64,000 nucleotides of DNA, taken from NCBI GenBank assembly GCA_021845665.1, contig JAJZVO010000007.1, forward strand, positions 1 through 64,000. Reading direction: 5' to 3'. Of this stretch, positions 1,505-14,023 are shown piece by piece; position 1 is the stretch's first letter, and every line of letters begins with the position of its first letter. The DNA comes from Bacteroidota bacterium (GTDB lineage Bacteria; Bacteroidota; Ignavibacteria; Kryptoniales; JAKASW01). Under the pieces are notes generated by a model. The model did not search any database. It worked only from the letters and a program-made list of their open reading frames with translations, and was not told the DNA's origin. Made by a program: the position numbers and the translations under genes.

Positions 1505-2485
1505 ATGCAGCCTATGCAAAAAAACAAGACAAAAAAAAGAATAGACCTGACTGGAAAGAAATACGATGTTGTGAAGTCGAAGGTCGCTGAACAGAGTGGA
1601 CTCTACGTCGTCAGCGTTTCATCGACTCACGCCCACATTCCATTAGATTCCATAGTCTGCGGCGACGCTCTGCAAGTACTCAAGAGCTTTCCCGCTGACT
1701 TTGTCGATTTGATTGTAACCTCCCCTCCATACGCCGACAAGAGACAGAATTCATACGGTGGAATTCATCCTGACCGCTACGTTCAGTGGTTCCTGCCGAT
1801 AGCTCAGGAGCTCAAGCGTGTCCTGAAGCCCTCGGGAACCTTCGTACTGAACATAAAGGAGGGAGTTTCGGAAGGACAGAGAGAAACTTACGTCTTGGAG
1901 CTAATACTTGAAATGAAAAAGCAAGGATGGCTCTGGACGGAGGAGTACATATGGCACAAACGGAACAGTTATCCCGGCAAGTGGCCCAATAGGTTCCGTG
2001 ACGCGTGGGAGCACTGCCTACAGTTCAACAAAGAGAAAAAGTTCTCGATGTACCAAGAAAGCGTTATGGTTCCCATGGGGGACTGGGCCAAAGCACGCCT
2101 GAAAAATCTAAGCGACACGGACAAGCTTCGAGACGAATCAAAAGTGGGTAGTGGCTTCGGAAAGAAGATTGCAAACTGGGTGGGAAGACGAATGGCTTAC
2201 CCCGATAACGTGCTTCATTTGGCAACCGAGTCTGCCAACAAGAACCACAGTGCCGCTTTCCCCAGTGTGCTCCCAGAGTGGTTCATAAAGCTATTCACAA
2301 AACCTGGTGACGTAGTTCTCGACCCCTTCCTTGGTTCCGGTACCTCTGCAGTCGCCGCGAAGAGATTGGGCCGCAGATACATTGGAATTGAGGTGCTTAG
2401 GCAGTTCTGCACGGAGGCTGAGAAGCGACTTAAACGAGAAGCAATCCATCCTGGAGACCTATTCGATGAAAACCATATCCCTTGA
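1505..2485 (+). CDS. Type II DNA methyltransferase, beta class, probably N4-cytosine
   Basis: 326 residues. The catalytic motif IV TSPPY (72-76) precedes the SAM-binding motif I, DPFLGSGT (273-280), giving the beta-class order. An SPPY tetrapeptide is typical of N4-cytosine methyltransferases, whereas DPPY or NPPY would suggest N6-adenine. It should transfer a methyl group from SAM to the sequence also recognised by the endonuclease encoded immediately downstream, whose ATG overlaps this gene's 3' end by 20 bp. The two genes form one bicistronic cassette bounded by attC 2 and attC 3. The recognition sequence cannot be read from the protein. An alternative ATG lies three codons downstream, and neither start has a strong ribosome-binding site. 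Confidence 0.9.
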   Translation: MQPMQKNKTKKRIDLTGKKYDVVKSKVAEQSGLYVVSVSSTHAHIPLDSIVCGDALQVLKSFPADFVDLIVTSPPYADKRQNSYGGIHPDRYVQWFLPIAQELKRVLKPSGTFVLNIKEGVSEGQRETYVLELILEMKKQGWLWTEEYIWHKRNSYPGKWPNRFRDAWEHCLQFNKEKKFSMYQESVMVPMGDWAKARLKNLSDTDKLRDESKVGSGFGKKIANWVGRRMAYPDNVLHLATESANKNHSAAFPSVLPEWFIKLFTKPGDVVLDPFLGSGTSAVAAKRLGRRYIGIEVLRQFCTEAEKRLKREAIHPGDLFDENHIP

Positions 2486-3206
2486 GGAGGTTAAAGAGTT
2501 CGTAAGTCACCACATCGGTGAGTTTCATGAAAGTCGGATAAGCAGAGTCAAGACAATCAAACTTAAGGACGTTCTTCAAAAAAAGAACCCCTACCTCTTT
2601 CGCGCAAAGAACATCCTTACTGCCGAGAGACTCATTGAATCGTTGCTTCAGGCCTATCTCTCGTCATCTGAGGAGGAGCTGTTCGGGCAATTCCTTGAGG
2701 AACTTGCCATCTTCATAGCTGGCAGGACACTTAATGGGCGCAAGTCCCCGGGCACAGGCATCGACTTAGAGTTTACCAAAGATGGCGTCGTTTACCTTGT
2801 TTCCATAAAGTCCGGGGTGAATTGGGGAAACAGTTCGCAGTATGCCGCGCTAAGAGATAGATTCAAGAAAGCGGTCCAAGTTCTCAAACAATCTAAATCC
2901 GTGAAGTCCGTTCAGCCTGTGCTGGCGTCGTGCTACGGGAGAAGGAGAACCGTGAACAATGGCGAGTACCTTCGCATTTGCGGACAAGAATTCTGGTACT
3001 TCATCAGCGGCAACACGCACCTTTACACGGACATCATAGAGCCGTTGGGCCATCAGGCCAAGCAACACAACCAGCACTACGAAGAAGAACTGGCCGCGGT
3101 CATCAATAAGTTCACGGCAGACTTCTCAAAGGAGTTCTGCGACGACGGCAGAATAGATTGGAACAAGCTGGTACACTTCAATAGCGGAAACTTGAAGTCA
3201 GCTTAA
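2466..3206 (+). CDS. Type II restriction endonuclease, PmeII/EcoO109I-like
   Basis: 246 residues. The ATG at 2466 is chosen because it overlaps the methyltransferase end and because protein-like sequence begins there; the frame is open further upstream but only antiparallel to methyltransferase codons. The segment KNPYLFRAKN (about 40-49) and the acidic stretch SSSEEELFGQFLEEL (about 66-80) resemble PmeII-family endonucleases. GTGID (D100) followed by VSIKSG (K115) fits a PD-(D/E)XK nuclease core, in which D100 would bind magnesium and K115 act in catalysis. It would cleave unmethylated foreign DNA such as phage DNA, protected at home by the upstream methyltransferase. Translational overlap suggests coordinated synthesis. 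The specific subfamily is from memory and less sure than the general role. Confidence 0.8.
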   Translation: MKTISLEEVKEFVSHHIGEFHESRISRVKTIKLKDVLQKKNPYLFRAKNILTAERLIESLLQAYLSSSEEELFGQFLEELAIFIAGRTLNGRKSPGTGIDLEFTKDGVVYLVSIKSGVNWGNSSQYAALRDRFKKAVQVLKQSKSVKSVQPVLASCYGRRRTVNNGEYLRICGQEFWYFISGNTHLYTDIIEPLGHQAKQHNQHYEEELAAVINKFTADFSKEFCDDGRIDWNKLVHFNSGNLKSA

Positions 3207-4862: not shown

Positions 4863-5675
4863 GTGAAGAAGAAGAAAACGTATGAGAGGACGTGCTTTTC
4901 CCCCGAAGTACTTGAAGAGGCAAGGACCCTGTTGTCATGCCCCCTCAAGGATGCCCAACCAACATCGGCCTCCGTGGAGTTTAGGGGGGAAAAGTGGTAC
5001 CACGATTTGAAAGAGGAATGTTATGCTGACATACGCAAAGAAATTGACTACTACTATTACTATGTGTCTGCCGAAGCATACGGGATAGAGGTTACCTACT
5101 TTGGCCCGTACAGCACTGCGGAAGTCAAAGCCCCGACTAGGTCTGAGGTTGAGGAGATCTTCTCTTGCTTCGAGAGAGGTGCACCACATTGCATAGTTCC
5201 CATTTCCTCCGCAGAGGCGGGTAAACCTGAATCTGATAGGCCCGTGGTTTTCATCGGTCACGGGAGAAGTCCGCAATGGAAAGAGTTGAAGGACCATCTA
5301 CGCGAACAACACGGTTATCCTGTCGAAGCCTATGAAATCGGAGCTAGGGCCGGACACGCAATTCGGGATATTCTTGAAGAGATGCTTGAGAAAAGTTCGT
5401 TTGCGATCCTTGTTATGACCGCCGAAGACAGAGTTCGCAAGGCGCACATGAGAGCACGCCAGAATGTGGTGCATGAACTTGGGCTGTTTCAGGGAAGACT
5501 TGGATTCAGCAGAGCCATTATTCTACTCGAACGTGGCGTTGAAGGATTCTCTAATATGCAGGGCATCCATCAGATACTGTTTTCCAAAAGGAACATTAAA
5601 GAAACTTTCGGCGATGTGCTTGCTACGCTGAAGCGCGAGTTCGCACAGTCCGAGCGGGACATTGAAGAAGAGTGA
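4863..5675 (+). CDS. TIR-like (PF10137-type) nucleotide-binding protein, candidate antiphage NADase
   Basis: 270 residues with a GTG start seven bases after an AGG Shine-Dalgarno. Residues about 1-115 form an unrecognised N-terminal domain containing a run of five tyrosines (63-67). Residues 128-255 look like the TIR-like domain of PF10137: VFIGHGRS (129-136), a conserved middle FAILVMTAEDR (180-190), then RARQNVVHELGLFQGRLG, where E205 would be the catalytic glutamate. Related domains cleave NAD+ as abortive-infection effectors, for example in CBASS. No cyclase, Argonaute or other sensor partner is in this cassette, so the N-terminal domain would have to sense the trigger itself. Domain identity is fairly sure; the defence role is inferred. 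Confidence 0.8.
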   Translation: MKKKKTYERTCFSPEVLEEARTLLSCPLKDAQPTSASVEFRGEKWYHDLKEECYADIRKEIDYYYYYVSAEAYGIEVTYFGPYSTAEVKAPTRSEVEEIFSCFERGAPHCIVPISSAEAGKPESDRPVVFIGHGRSPQWKELKDHLREQHGYPVEAYEIGARAGHAIRDILEEMLEKSSFAILVMTAEDRVRKAHMRARQNVVHELGLFQGRLGFSRAIILLERGVEGFSNMQGIHQILFSKRNIKETFGDVLATLKREFAQSERDIEEE

Positions 5676-5868: not shown

Positions 5869-6309
5869 ATGAACAGCGACGCGAGTTTCAAACCAAAGCC
5901 CGACATCGACCTCGCCCAAATGCGGCGACTTCACTATTGGCTTTCCTACAACCGCTATAGCATCTTCATCTATGGTGGTGGTTTCTTCCTGCCTGCGGTA
6001 CCTATACTCCTCGCATTGATCGTACTCGCCATCGTGTTCGCTCCCTATATGCTTTGCGTTCTTTACCAAAATTGGAAGCATGGCTGGCTCGTTACCTTTG
6101 CAATTATGGTGGGCATTCCATTGCCCTTTGCATTCTTATCGACTGGCAGTGTTATTATTGACACCGGATTACATTTTCTACCCCTGCTGACCTTCTATTT
6201 CTACTGCTACCTTCTCCGGTTCTCAGTTGGCGAATGGATCAGCGACGCGAGTCCAATCGACGCGCTCTGGACTAACGAAGAAAACGCACAAAACAGACTA
6301 GGCCAATAG
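5869..6309 (+). CDS. Multi-pass membrane protein of unknown function
   Basis: 146 residues starting at ATG 5869, after a good AGGAG site. The frame is open upstream only because it crosses attC 5. About three to four hydrophobic segments are visible: YSIFIYGGGFFLPAVPILLA, the following ALIVLAIVFAPYMLCVLY, LVTFAIMVGIPLPFAFL, and a region rich in Leu/Phe/Tyr around FLPLLTFYFYCYLL. The termini are polar and probably cytoplasmic. I recognise no family. It is the only gene of its cassette, whose attC (begins at 6365) is interrupted by an IS110-family element. Confidence 0.6.
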   Translation: MNSDASFKPKPDIDLAQMRRLHYWLSYNRYSIFIYGGGFFLPAVPILLALIVLAIVFAPYMLCVLYQNWKHGWLVTFAIMVGIPLPFAFLSTGSVIIDTGLHFLPLLTFYFYCYLLRFSVGEWISDASPIDALWTNEENAQNRLGQ

Positions 6310-6364: not shown

Positions 6365-6371
6365 AGATAAC
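6365..6371 (+). other. attC: Left core (R'') of attC site 6, separated by an insertion
   Basis: agataac is preceded by caacggc, and the block ggcagataac is the exact complement of gttatctgcc (5822-5831) at the cassette's left end. It is therefore a genuine R'' core. The body of this attC resumes at about 7948. Confidence 0.85.
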
Positions 6372-6811
6372 ATGCGCCTATAGAAAAGAATGTCAAGAGA
6401 AAAGACGATTCCATTAGGAAAAATATTTCCTTTCTTTCCTTGCATTCGGTCTCACAAGCCATGGTGTGGCAGAACACTTTCTTAGAGATGCCCGTGGTGG
6501 AACGGGGAAGTCGTGCTCTTTGCCTCTAGCGATCTTTTCTTTACTCGATTATTTGCTGTAAGCATTTTGCTTATGCGCCTATCTGAGCTCTCACTTAGCT
6601 GACCCATTGTAAAAGGGGAAAGCAATTCGGGCTACGGTAAATTTGAGCAAAAGCCGGAGGGGGCTAACCGAGAAGATGGTGTATCCCCGACATGGCAGGG
6701 TCACATGCATGTTATTGAGCTCTCCCTCCTGAACTCCAAGTTCGCTTTTCTGACAAAGAACGTTTTAGATGACAACAGTCTTAAGTTGGGTAGCCACAAT
6801 GGCTTACTCTT
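6372..6811 (-). other. Non-coding tract downstream of the IS110-family transposase
   Basis: 440 bp without a plausible gene. In IS1111-type elements the guide (bridge/seek) RNA is encoded downstream of the transposase, so about 6640-6811 on the reverse strand is the place to expect one; I cannot fold it reliably by eye. The outer part (6372-6634) carries a 10-bp direct repeat, atgcgcctat, at 6372-6381 and 6573-6582, and may be a separate insertion or cassette remnant. Confidence 0.4.
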
Positions 6812-7849
6812 CTACTTCTTTACACTTTTGCTCCATCTGTATGGCTCATACTTTTCGTTGCTCTTCATGATCCCTAAGGACAGCCGAGCGATATACCTGG
6901 CAACGGCAACTCTGGCGTTATGCTCGGCGATGCCTTTCTTGAGAAGATAGTCGTAGTATTCTCTTACCGGCCCGTCTCCATTGATGGCACTCATTGCAGC
7001 ACCGTTGTATATGCCCTTGAGCATCCGATTGTAATGGGGCTTTCGGGTCCCGTACTTTTTCCTTCCGCTTGTCTTCTCCACTCTGACCAGACCGCAGTAG
7101 GCCAGATATCTGCCTGTTGTGGAGAATCGCTTCGGCTCGATCACAGCCGCAAGGATCTTCGCCGCCCTGATGGGCCCTATTCCGTCGAGACTTGCAAGAG
7201 TCTTGATGGATCGATTCTTCTTGCGCCATTTCTCGAACTCTGCCTCGTATGCAGACTTCGTCTCTTCGTAGAGAGATATGTTCCGATCCAGGAACCCGCC
7301 GATAAATGTCGCCGCATCATCCAATCTGGCAGCGTCCGAACCGAGTCCACGGATGAGTGAGTGTCTTTGATTTTGCGAACGAACCCCGTGTTTTATCACA
7401 TCCTCGTAAGCAGCGACCAAACGCCTTAGTTTATATAGCTCTTCGTCGTCAGCGTGGAAGACCTCTGTAAGCAATCCTCCTTTGAGCAGTTCGACAAGCT
7501 TCGTCGCGTCGATCTTGTCGGTCTTTGGACCGTCGGAGAGGAGCTTATTCTTGAACGGATCGCATACGATCACTCTTTCCACAACATCCTTTAGTTCCAG
7601 GTAAAGCCAGTGGGCACCCGTACTCTCTTCGAAGGTCACGACGGTCTTGCCTGGCAGCCCTTTCAGGTATCGCTTTAGCTCAACGATATTCGACGGAACG
7701 TCTGCAACCCTAAGCTTTCCGCTCCCTCTTTTCATCACAGCAATTGCCATATTGTTAATCGACCAGTCGACGGCAACGTAGTTATCATACCTTTGCATCT
7801 CCGACCGGTTGCTTCTTCGACGATCCTCTTTTACCTTTCCTAAAATCAT
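6812..7849 (-). CDS. IS110-family DEDD transposase
   Basis: 345 residues. The N-terminal RuvC-like domain shows D28 (AVDWS), E74/E75 (FEES), and D111/D114 (TDKIDA), the DEDD catalytic residues. The C-terminal Tnp20 domain contains a helix-hairpin-helix-like segment (LASLDGIGPIRAAKIL) and the region GAAMSA carrying the candidate nucleophilic serine. The start at 7849 has an AAAGGAG site seven bases upstream. The length is normal for the family and the frame is intact, so the element may be active. IS110-family enzymes recombine via a circular intermediate, guided by an element-encoded RNA. The gene is transcribed against the direction of the cassette genes. Confidence 0.95.
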   Translation of the reverse strand: MILGKVKEDRRRSNRSEMQRYDNYVAVDWSINNMAIAVMKRGSGKLRVADVPSNIVELKRYLKGLPGKTVVTFEESTGAHWLYLELKDVVERVIVCDPFKNKLLSDGPKTDKIDATKLVELLKGGLLTEVFHADDEELYKLRRLVAAYEDVIKHGVRSQNQRHSLIRGLGSDAARLDDAATFIGGFLDRNISLYEETKSAYEAEFEKWRKKNRSIKTLASLDGIGPIRAAKILAAVIEPKRFSTTGRYLAYCGLVRVEKTSGRKKYGTRKPHYNRMLKGIYNGAAMSAINGDGPVREYYDYLLKKGIAEHNARVAVARYIARLSLGIMKSNEKYEPYRWSKSVKK

Positions 7850-7886
7850 GGTGGTCTCCTTTCGTGTTTTGAGATGTCAACTTTCT

Positions 7887-7911
7887 CCCCCGCTTTGCGG
7901 GGGACTACACC
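7887..7911. repeat. Hairpin and subterminal inverted repeat of the IS110-family element
   Basis: CCCCCGC-ttt-GCGGGGG (7887-7903) is a perfect 7-bp stem. Its right arm continues into actacacc, and 7897-7911 is the partner of 6678-6691 at the other end of the element. It lies between the transposase gene and the element's right edge. Confidence 0.6.
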
Positions 7912-7947
7912 AGGATACGATCGTGAGACCATCTTTTCTAATTTACC

Positions 7948-8070
7948 GGGAAGAAGACGCTCGTCATTTGTATGTTTCGTTCTCGCTTCATTGCGTTCGC
8001 CCGGCGCTTCGACGCTTCGCGACTTGTATAGCGGGCGACCGCAACGACTTCTTCCTGCGTCACGTTAGGC
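7948..8070 (+). other. attC: Body and right core of attC site 6
   Basis: gggaagaagacgctcgtc through cgacttcttcctgc to gttaggc (8064-8070). The arms are complementary, but the expected left core is missing here and lies at 6365-6371, with the IS110-family element between. Confidence 0.88.
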
Positions 8071-11849: not shown

Positions 11850-12494
11850 CTATCGGAACATACGGGCGAGATTCTTTTTCGACGCCCCCAGAACGAGGAG
11901 TGAACGGACAAGCAAGTCGAGCGACACCGATGGATCCCCAGCTTCCATCTTCGCGATTCTTGATTGGCTTGACTTCAGCAGTCTCGCAAGCCCTTGTTGC
12001 GTCAATTTCTTCTCGAGACGGTACTTCTGGAGGTTCTTGCTCAACGTCAATTTCAGTTCGATATATGCAACTTCCTCAGCTGAAAGGTTCAGGAATTCAC
12101 TTGCATTCCCTACCTTCCACCCCTTCGCTTCGAGGCGTTTTCTCTTTGAGGTTCTCATGTTTCTACTCCAATCTTGCGATTCGTATAGCCGAATTCGTCG
12201 CTTGCAGTTCTCAATCACATCTTTGGGTGTCTTCTGAGTCTTCTTGTCGGAGACCTCAAGAATCACGATGGCATCGGAGTCAACTCTATAAACGATACGC
12301 CACGTCCTATTCTCGTCATCAATCCGAAGCTCGTGACACCTTGCACCGACCGACGGCATTGGGCGCGAGTGAGGCAATGAAAGATTCTCGCCCATCTGCA
12401 ACCGACGCAACAAGTAACCAGCTTCAATCCTTGCTTGGCCTGAGAAGGGAGGTGTCTTTATCTCTCCATGAAGCCAAACAAGAGGTTTGTTCAC
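11850..12494 (-). CDS. HigB-HigA toxin-antitoxin fused in one reading frame
   Basis: About 214 residues from the GTG at 12494 (a TTG three codons upstream is also open). Residues about 1-108 match the HigB/RelE-like mRNA interferase family (KPLVWLHGEIKTPPF, HSRPMP, TWRIVYRVDSDAIVILEV, KRRI). From the internal ATG at 12158 the protein is HigA-like, with an XRE helix-turn-helix (LQKYRLEKKLTQQGLARLLK, then SSQSRIAKME). Normally toxin and antitoxin are separate proteins; here no stop separates them. GGAG lies seven bases before the internal ATG, so free antitoxin is probably also made (11850-12158). The gene runs against the cassette direction and has its own promoter and operator, as toxin-antitoxin cassettes often do. 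Confidence 0.8.
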   Translation of the reverse strand: MNKPLVWLHGEIKTPPFSGQARIEAGYLLRRLQMGENLSLPHSRPMPSVGARCHELRIDDENRTWRIVYRVDSDAIVILEVSDKKTQKTPKDVIENCKRRIRLYESQDWSRNMRTSKRKRLEAKGWKVGNASEFLNLSAEEVAYIELKLTLSKNLQKYRLEKKLTQQGLARLLKSSQSRIAKMEAGDPSVSLDLLVRSLLVLGASKKNLARMFR

Positions 12495-12513
12495 TGTTTT
12501 CAATCGATATAAT

Positions 12514-12573: not shown

Positions 12574-12709
12574 GGATAACAAGTGGGAAAAAGACGCTCG
12601 TCATTTGTATATATCGAGCTCGCTTCATCCCGATTCGGCACCATCATTGGAGCTTCGCGCATTTGTAGTGTCGAATCGGGACGACTTCTTCCGGCAGGAC
12701 TACTTAGCC
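12574..12709 (+). other. attC: attC site 10, R' core altered
   Basis: ggataac (12574-12580) to cttagcc (12703-12709), the latter a one-base variant of gttagcc. The body is well conserved (aaagacgctcgtcatttgtatatat, cgggacgacttcttcc). Confidence 0.8.
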
Positions 12710-13400: not shown

Positions 13401-13799
13401 TCAATGCTTCGGGAGGCGGGCCGAATGATTCTTCAGCCAGGAGGATAGCTCAGTCTTCGAGACATTTCCTGAAGATAAGTCGATCATCAATGAATATGCG
13501 TCCTCCTCGTTGGCAGCAATCTCCCAACCGTTTCTCTGGAGGAAAAGATCCATTAGTACAAAGGCAACTCGTTTATTGCCGTCAATAAATGGATGGTTTT
13601 TGCACAGATGAAATCCATAAGCTGCCGCCTTGTCGAAGACCGACTTGTGCACGAACTTTCGCCCGACGGTTACTTTGGGCTGGGCCAGAGCGGATTGAAG
13701 CAGAGCTACATCCCGGATCCCGGCTTTTCCGCCGTATCGCTGGAGGAGATCAGAATGGATTATTGTTACGAGTTCCTCCGGCAGGAAGCGGATGGCCAT
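13401..13799 (-). CDS. doc: Doc-type toxin (Fic fold)
   Basis: 132 residues, the usual Doc length. The Fic-like active-site motif HPFIDGNKR lies at 69-77. In Doc proteins this domain phosphorylates elongation factor EF-Tu and stops translation. Its ATG overlaps the stop codon of the upstream AbrB-type antitoxin gene by one base (TAATG), so the two are translationally coupled. The pair is transcribed against the cassette direction and ends 12 bp from the preceding attC core. The frame and motif are intact, so the toxin is probably functional. Confidence 0.9.
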   Translation of the reverse strand: MAIRFLPEELVTIIHSDLLQRYGGKAGIRDVALLQSALAQPKVTVGRKFVHKSVFDKAAAYGFHLCKNHPFIDGNKRVAFVLMDLFLQRNGWEIAANEEDAYSLMIDLSSGNVSKTELSSWLKNHSARLPKH

Positions 13800-14023
13800 T
13801 ATTTCGCTAAGGCCTTAAGCGTGTTCCTGTACTTCTTGTTTGTGCGTTCGTATGCCTTTGCCCAATCAGCAAACTTGGGGTTGAACGGCGTAATGATCAC
13901 GCCCTCATCTGTCTCGACGAGGTGCAGCTCATCGCCCTCGCTGAGGTGCAAATTGTCGATCACGGTTCTCGGCAGGGTAATTCCCAGGCTGTTGCCAACT
14001 CGTCGGACCGCTGTCTTAAGCAT
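13799..14023 (-). CDS. AbrB/SpoVT-type antitoxin of the Doc pair
   Basis: 74 residues. The N-terminal about 50 (AVRRVGNSLGITLPRTVID, LSEGDELHLVETDEGVIITP) are a swapped-hairpin AbrB DNA-binding domain. The C-terminal FADWAKAYERTNKKYRNTLK is the likely toxin-neutralising tail. GGAG lies eight bases upstream of the ATG. It should repress its own promoter with Doc as co-repressor. Some Doc toxins pair with Phd-type antitoxins; here the partner has the AbrB fold. Confidence 0.88.
   Translation of the reverse strand: MLKTAVRRVGNSLGITLPRTVIDNLHLSEGDELHLVETDEGVIITPFNPKFADWAKAYERTNKKYRNTLKALAK

Follow-up and report, generated by a model that had tools for sequence, protein, structure and literature searches.

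An IS1111-like element inside an integron attC site in a Bacteroidota genome, with candidate guide sequences matching the site

Results and discussion

A split attC site in an integron cassette array

The first 13.4 kb of the window (the whole 64,000-nucleotide stretch of DNA that was analysed) are occupied by a cassette array, whose attC repeats follow the scheme TAACA-11 bases-GACGCTCR...CGTTA(G/T)GC. One attC pattern matches six further sites in the array (at 1309, 3245, 4680, 5710, 10053 and 13275), and an additional attC lies at 12577. Seven matches to the pattern lie in this genome, either on the window's contig or on contig C92, and sister genomes contribute about 100, with a reversed control pattern giving 0–2 matches per genome and strand. 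One attC is split by an insertion element, and the features of this locus are as follows:

5869..6309, plus strand: 146-aa gene carried by the interrupted cassette; sister genome G002:C26 has a copy at 91% identity
6365..6376, plus strand: left remnant of the split attC (R'' and initial spacer bases), agataacatgCG
6375..6376: CG core dinucleotide at the element's right end, placed by the gapless restored site
6377..7948, minus strand: insertion element, 1572 bp counting one CG core, delimited by empty-site alignment and the conserved ends of relatives
6381..6394, minus strand: right subterminal inverted repeat (plus strand TAGAAAAGAATGTC), conserved in relatives
6391..6396, minus strand: TTGACA, -35 half of a putative junction promoter, 17 bp from TAAATT
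6812..7849, minus strand: intact DEDD transposase/recombinase gene, 345 aa (Pfam, alignment and structure model)
7927..7940, minus strand: left subterminal inverted repeat (minus strand TAGAAAAGATGGTC), conserved in relatives
7940..7945, minus strand: TAAATT, -10 half of the putative junction promoter
7947..7948: CG core dinucleotide at the element's left end, placed by the gapless restored site
7949..8070, plus strand: right remnant of the split attC, from the L'' arm to R'

The sequence-only reading had proposed an IS110/IS1111-like element exactly inside an attC of an Ignavibacteriota/Bacteroidota-type genome, flanked by the R'' core agataac (6365-6371) and the remaining attC, and each of these points held. 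When position 6376 is joined to 7949, where the remainder begins, the restored attC (AGATAACATGCGGGAAGAAGACGCTCG...) can be aligned gaplessly across the join with the intact attC sites of five sister genomes (G003, G011, G004, G002 and G007; 83–89% identity), and the insertion is therefore exact, with edges at 6376/6377 and 7948/7949. The split falls between the R'' core and the L'' arm, the R' core gttaggc lying at 8064-8070, and the element thus occupies one end of the attC, as in the IS1111-attC group. Uninterrupted homologous sites had been suggested as a means of exposing false junctions; the sister sites run gapless across the join, so the edges are insertion edges. A merely divergent attC with a cassette-borne transposase gene is hence an extremely improbable reading: such genes can ride in cassettes, but the flanks rejoin to a full attC, which already refutes this explanation, and the element's ends are common to relatives in unrelated sites.

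Several other features of the array and genus were recorded. A Pfam search with the interrupted-cassette gene returned no match, and its copy in the sister genome (G002:C26:242241-242778) is without an attC directly downstream. Defence-type cassette genes at 1505-3206, 4863-5675 and 535-1293 comprise an EcoO109I-like restriction enzyme and methylase, a CAP12/PCTIR TIR-domain effector and an Nmad3 nucleotide-modification protein. On the minus strand (11850-12503 and 13401-14023), in or adjoining the array, lie a HigBA-like pair, Gp49 plus HTH read in a single frame, and a Fic/Doc gene partnered by an AbrB-like one. A tyrosine recombinase of the same genome (G000:C92:79342-80361, or L112:3343-4362) matched the integron integrase model in two pieces only, the middle stretch being absent, and ends in an IntI-like RSPIESI tail. 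Comparable two-piece recombinases are encoded at G011:C71:69270-70079 and G004:C61:66284, and in three genomes of the genus the gene adjoins attC repeats; judging from these sequences, it could be an integron integrase without the usual insertion.

Transposase and element ends

The transposase matches Transposase_20 (E 8e-14) and DEDD_Tnp_IS110 (E 4e-8), both above cut-offs, and has the DEDD RuvC-like N-terminal and Transposase_20 C-terminal domains of the IS110/IS1111 superfamily. Residues D28, E74/E75, D111, D114 and S261 are conserved in the alignment, and the length of 345 aa falls within the 330–350 aa given for IS1111 transposases (PMC11187229). Its AlphaFold model (pLDDT 84) has the IS621 and ISCro4 recombinases as best structural matches (E 3e-12 and 1e-11, respectively; TM-score 0.50–0.55, about 20% identity). 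Plasmid-borne IS110s share no more than 29% identity with the transposase across most of its length.

The extended imperfect end repeats noted earlier are real: the subterminal inverted repeats agree at 12 of 14 positions, repeats in the IS1111 group being usually 11–13 bp. About 430 noncoding bases lie downstream of the transposase gene (6377-6811) compared with about 100 upstream (7850-7948), and a long noncoding region downstream is typical of that group. The end extensions do not follow the IS1111 arrangement of 7 bp on the left and 3 bp on the right (occasionally 6 and 3); here they are GTAAAT (6) and CCTA (4), plus the CG core per edge, giving about 12 bases in the circle rather than 10. 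Edges of 7 and 3 bases by analogy with IS1111 were rejected, as they leave the restored attC 4 bases too long, and the CG-core edges were preferred because they restore the 11-base spacer of the other attC sites. Relatives share a common left end (C-G-NTAAATT...) and a common right end (...TTGAC(A/T)TTCTTTTCTATAG(A/G)-C). TTGACA and TAAATT come to lie 17 bp apart once the ends join in a circle; in ISEc11, a promoter is formed at the joined ends (PMC11187229). The element is present in one copy in its genome.

A putative guide RNA region matching the attC and the element ends

Downstream of the transposase gene, a region conserved in relatives contains four candidate guides, two for the target and two for the element's own ends:

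6570..6741, minus strand: putative seekRNA/bridge-RNA region, target loop then donor loop
6724..6729, minus strand: 5' arm of the target-loop closing stem, RNA GGAGGG
6707..6715, minus strand: target guide 1, AUAACAUGC, with 9/9 pairs to GCATGTTAT on the right flank (attC R'' side)
6668..6675, minus strand: target guide 2, CUUCUCGG, matching the left flank CTTCCCGG with one G-U pair
6656..6661, minus strand: 3' arm of the target-loop closing stem, RNA CCCUCC
6635..6643, minus strand: donor guide 1, AAUUUACCG, complement of the left end CGGTAAATT at 9/9 positions
6576..6582, minus strand: donor guide 2, AUAGGCG, same sequence as the right end (ATAGG-CG) and changing with it in relatives

Within target guide 2, the stretch CUUCUCG forms six pairs and one G-U with the L'' side of the attC. 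The arrangement is that of a seekRNA/bridge RNA, with pairing to the top and bottom target strands and the top match 5' of the bottom one. The motifs GAGAGnTCA-[guide 1]...[guide 2]-GGTTA and AAATTTACCG-TAGCCC...GAGAGCTCA-[ATAG(A/G)CG] persist in those relatives whose noncoding region is intact, and the closing stem shows compensating changes (GGGAG/CTCCC, GGAAG/CTTCC, GAGAAG/CTTCTC and GGAGTG/CACTCC). Structure here means stems identified by script and by eye: the fold energy of the window's RNA was not better than that of shuffles (z -0.44 and +0.86), an Rfam search of the region matched no family, and RNAalifold on a gap-rich MAFFT alignment of relatives gave no consensus structure because loop lengths vary.

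The guides co-vary with targets and ends among relatives. Guide 1 scored against its own right flank gave a sum of 95 in 12 elements (52.4 ± 5.0 when permuted) and 215.5 in 30 elements (97.3 ± 7.4), with none of 20,000 permutations as good in either case; the anchors of the first 16 elements were placed by hand. A score of at least 7 was reached by 24 of the 30 elements, compared with 1.4% of mismatched pairs, and some of the six low-scoring elements are probably decayed or mis-anchored. Guide 2 against its own left flank scored 62.5 versus 39.6 ± 3.9 (0 of 20,000), with poor matches in G112 and G342. A 9-nt match anywhere in the 420-nt noncoding region, free of any register constraint, arose in 33 of 3000 shuffles (about 1%). 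The pattern matches 112 attC sites in the genus. Of these, 11 start with TAACATGC, and one (G004:C51:22872, TAACATGCGAGAAGAAG) pairs with both target guides without wobble.

The donor guides change together with the ends (CGATAAATT with AAUUUAUCG). ATAGG ends go with AUAGG guides in the six such elements with matching core position, the exception being L190, which is decayed at its target too, and ATAGA ends accompany AUAGA guides in nearly all other elements. In L233, a TG core accompanies the guide AAUUUACCA.

Since the guide-RNA region matches the site base for base, the attC was very probably chosen by RNA-guided targeting. We consider it highly likely (probability about 0.9), on the strength of these sequence comparisons, that a complete IS1111-like (IS110-family) element lies in this attC because the site is the one for which its seekRNA/bridge RNA is programmed. 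The position and strand of insertion follow the guide. Choice of target by shape, that is, by a hairpin or palindrome such as an attC, REP or terminator, would also fit the several palindromic targets in the lineage (G012, G011, G130 and REP-like GTCATTCCCGCG sites), but it is very unlikely given that the in-register matches of guides to their own flanks lie far above permutation and that some targets do not look palindromic.

Relatives, their targets and the origin of attC targeting

Relatives were sought in 391 genomes of the class, 395 of the phylum and GTDB contigs. A contig scan with the single transposase protein as query found no relative; with the alignment as query it found 147, of which the best 80 were retained, and a search of viral contigs found none. 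At about 38–55% identity, relatives occur in Ignavibacteriota, Bacteroidota, Myxococcota, Bdellovibrionota, Nitrospirota, Thermodesulfobacteriota and others, these names being those of metagenome bins.

The nearest relatives with readable ends (52–55% identity, same genus) occupy other palindromes, such as AAACCCCTC-CG-GGGTTTT in G012 and CCTGC-CG-GCAGG in G011, and each relative with an intact noncoding region has its own target guide there. In the latter genome, a CCTGCCTGCCGGCAGGCAGG palindrome, of the same kind as that element's target, lies inside the transposase gene of a decayed copy (L022, near 4640).

Four other elements (G225, G342 (BRH_c32), G112 and L180) sit at the TAACGGCG(TTG) ends of attC-type repeats. 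The G225 repeats form a same-strand array spanning 16 kb, and a full integron integrase is encoded on another contig of that genome (435 bits); array layout, palindromy and the integrase are the grounds for identifying such repeats as attC. The copy in G225 is at the other end of its repeat with its transposase gene along the cassettes, whereas the window's copy is at the R'' end with its gene against them. The expectation that copies would always be in attC and on the same strand, as in the IS1111-attC group, consequently failed, both for the close relatives and for orientation.

The four attC-associated taxa form a clade (support 100/99), and in the best tree the window element falls apart from them, beside L193/G012 (support 96/95). 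A tree forced to group all attC copies is worse by 19.9 log units (AU p 0.055), and a single common attC clade is not firmly rejected on these sequences. It nonetheless appears unlikely that the element comes from a dedicated attC-hunting lineage of the IS1111-attC type, one whose proteins are themselves bound to attC by descent. The window element and four taxa of its lineage do occupy attC or attC-type repeats, as that origin would predict; the separation in the best tree, the other sites and guides of the neighbours, and the low identity to plasmid IS110s speak against it. On present evidence, the lineage would instead be RNA-programmed and IS1111-like without being dedicated to attC, because close relatives occupy other, mostly palindromic sites with their own guides, and attC targeting in this separate branch appears to have arisen on its own. 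The earlier suggestion of a new lineage is thus upheld as regards distance from plasmid IS110s and abandoned as regards dedication to attC.

Comparison with known systems

Targeting of attC by IS1111 elements, which the sequence-only reading had noted as known, is published: ISKpn4, ISPst6, ISPa25 and ISPa21 are such elements (Tetu & Holmes 2008 and Post & Hall 2009, as cited in PMC11187229 and PMC11616780). The element described here for this reason adds a new and distant member to a known kind, one whose guide evidence is unusually clear. It appears remote by sequence from those four, as judged from the comparison with plasmid IS110s. Its end extensions comprise about 6 and 4 bases, to which a 2-base core is added, whereas theirs are 7 and 3, and its near relatives use other targets.

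In ISEc11 and ISXne4 (IS1111; PMC11187229), as here, related transposases carry different guides and have different targets, which amounts to natural reprogramming, and a promoter is formed at the joined ends; here, however, re-targeting extends across some 30 elements and many phyla, and donor guides can be read too. The bridge-RNA recombinases IS621 and ISCro4 (PDB 8wt6/8wt9 and 9t56) share separate target and donor loops and a dinucleotide core. In IS621, of the IS110 group, the RNA is in the left end, upstream of the gene (PMC11208160), whereas the RNA region here is downstream of the transposase gene and accompanied by long subterminal repeats, and the core in the window's lineage is CG or CA, rarely TG, and not CT.

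Proposed mechanism

In the mechanism that we propose, the element would leave as a circle, and its joined ends would create a promoter (TTGACA-17 bp-TAAATT) for expression of the recombinase and the downstream RNA. The donor loop would then pair with the joined ends (AAUUUACCG with the left end and AUAGGCG with the right end) and the target loop, through AUAACAUGC and CUUCUCG, with the R''–L'' interval of the attC, and the DEDD recombinase would swap strands at the shared CG core. A split attC would no longer be foldable or recombinable by the integron integrase, and the cassette in front would therefore be locked until the element exits precisely. The sequences show an exact insertion, a complete element and guides that co-vary with targets and ends; that the RNA is expressed, how strands are exchanged and that the cassette is locked we infer.

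Implications

The element may represent an undescribed, phylum-crossing clade of IS1111-like RNA-guided recombinases, with a C-R core, an altered end geometry and four readable guides, in which attC targeting was acquired at least twice by guide rewriting, such that integrons outside Proteobacteria are repeatedly colonised by RNA-programmed elements; we regard the odds of this as roughly even. The elements provide a natural series of about 30 diverged RNA-guided recombinases that allows target guides, donor guides, core and ends to be read side by side, which is useful for working out the programming rules of IS1111-type systems, less studied than IS621. The finding also suggests that attC sites are recurrent, guide-specified targets in the sedentary integrons of environmental bacteria, where each insertion into an attC should freeze one cassette reversibly.
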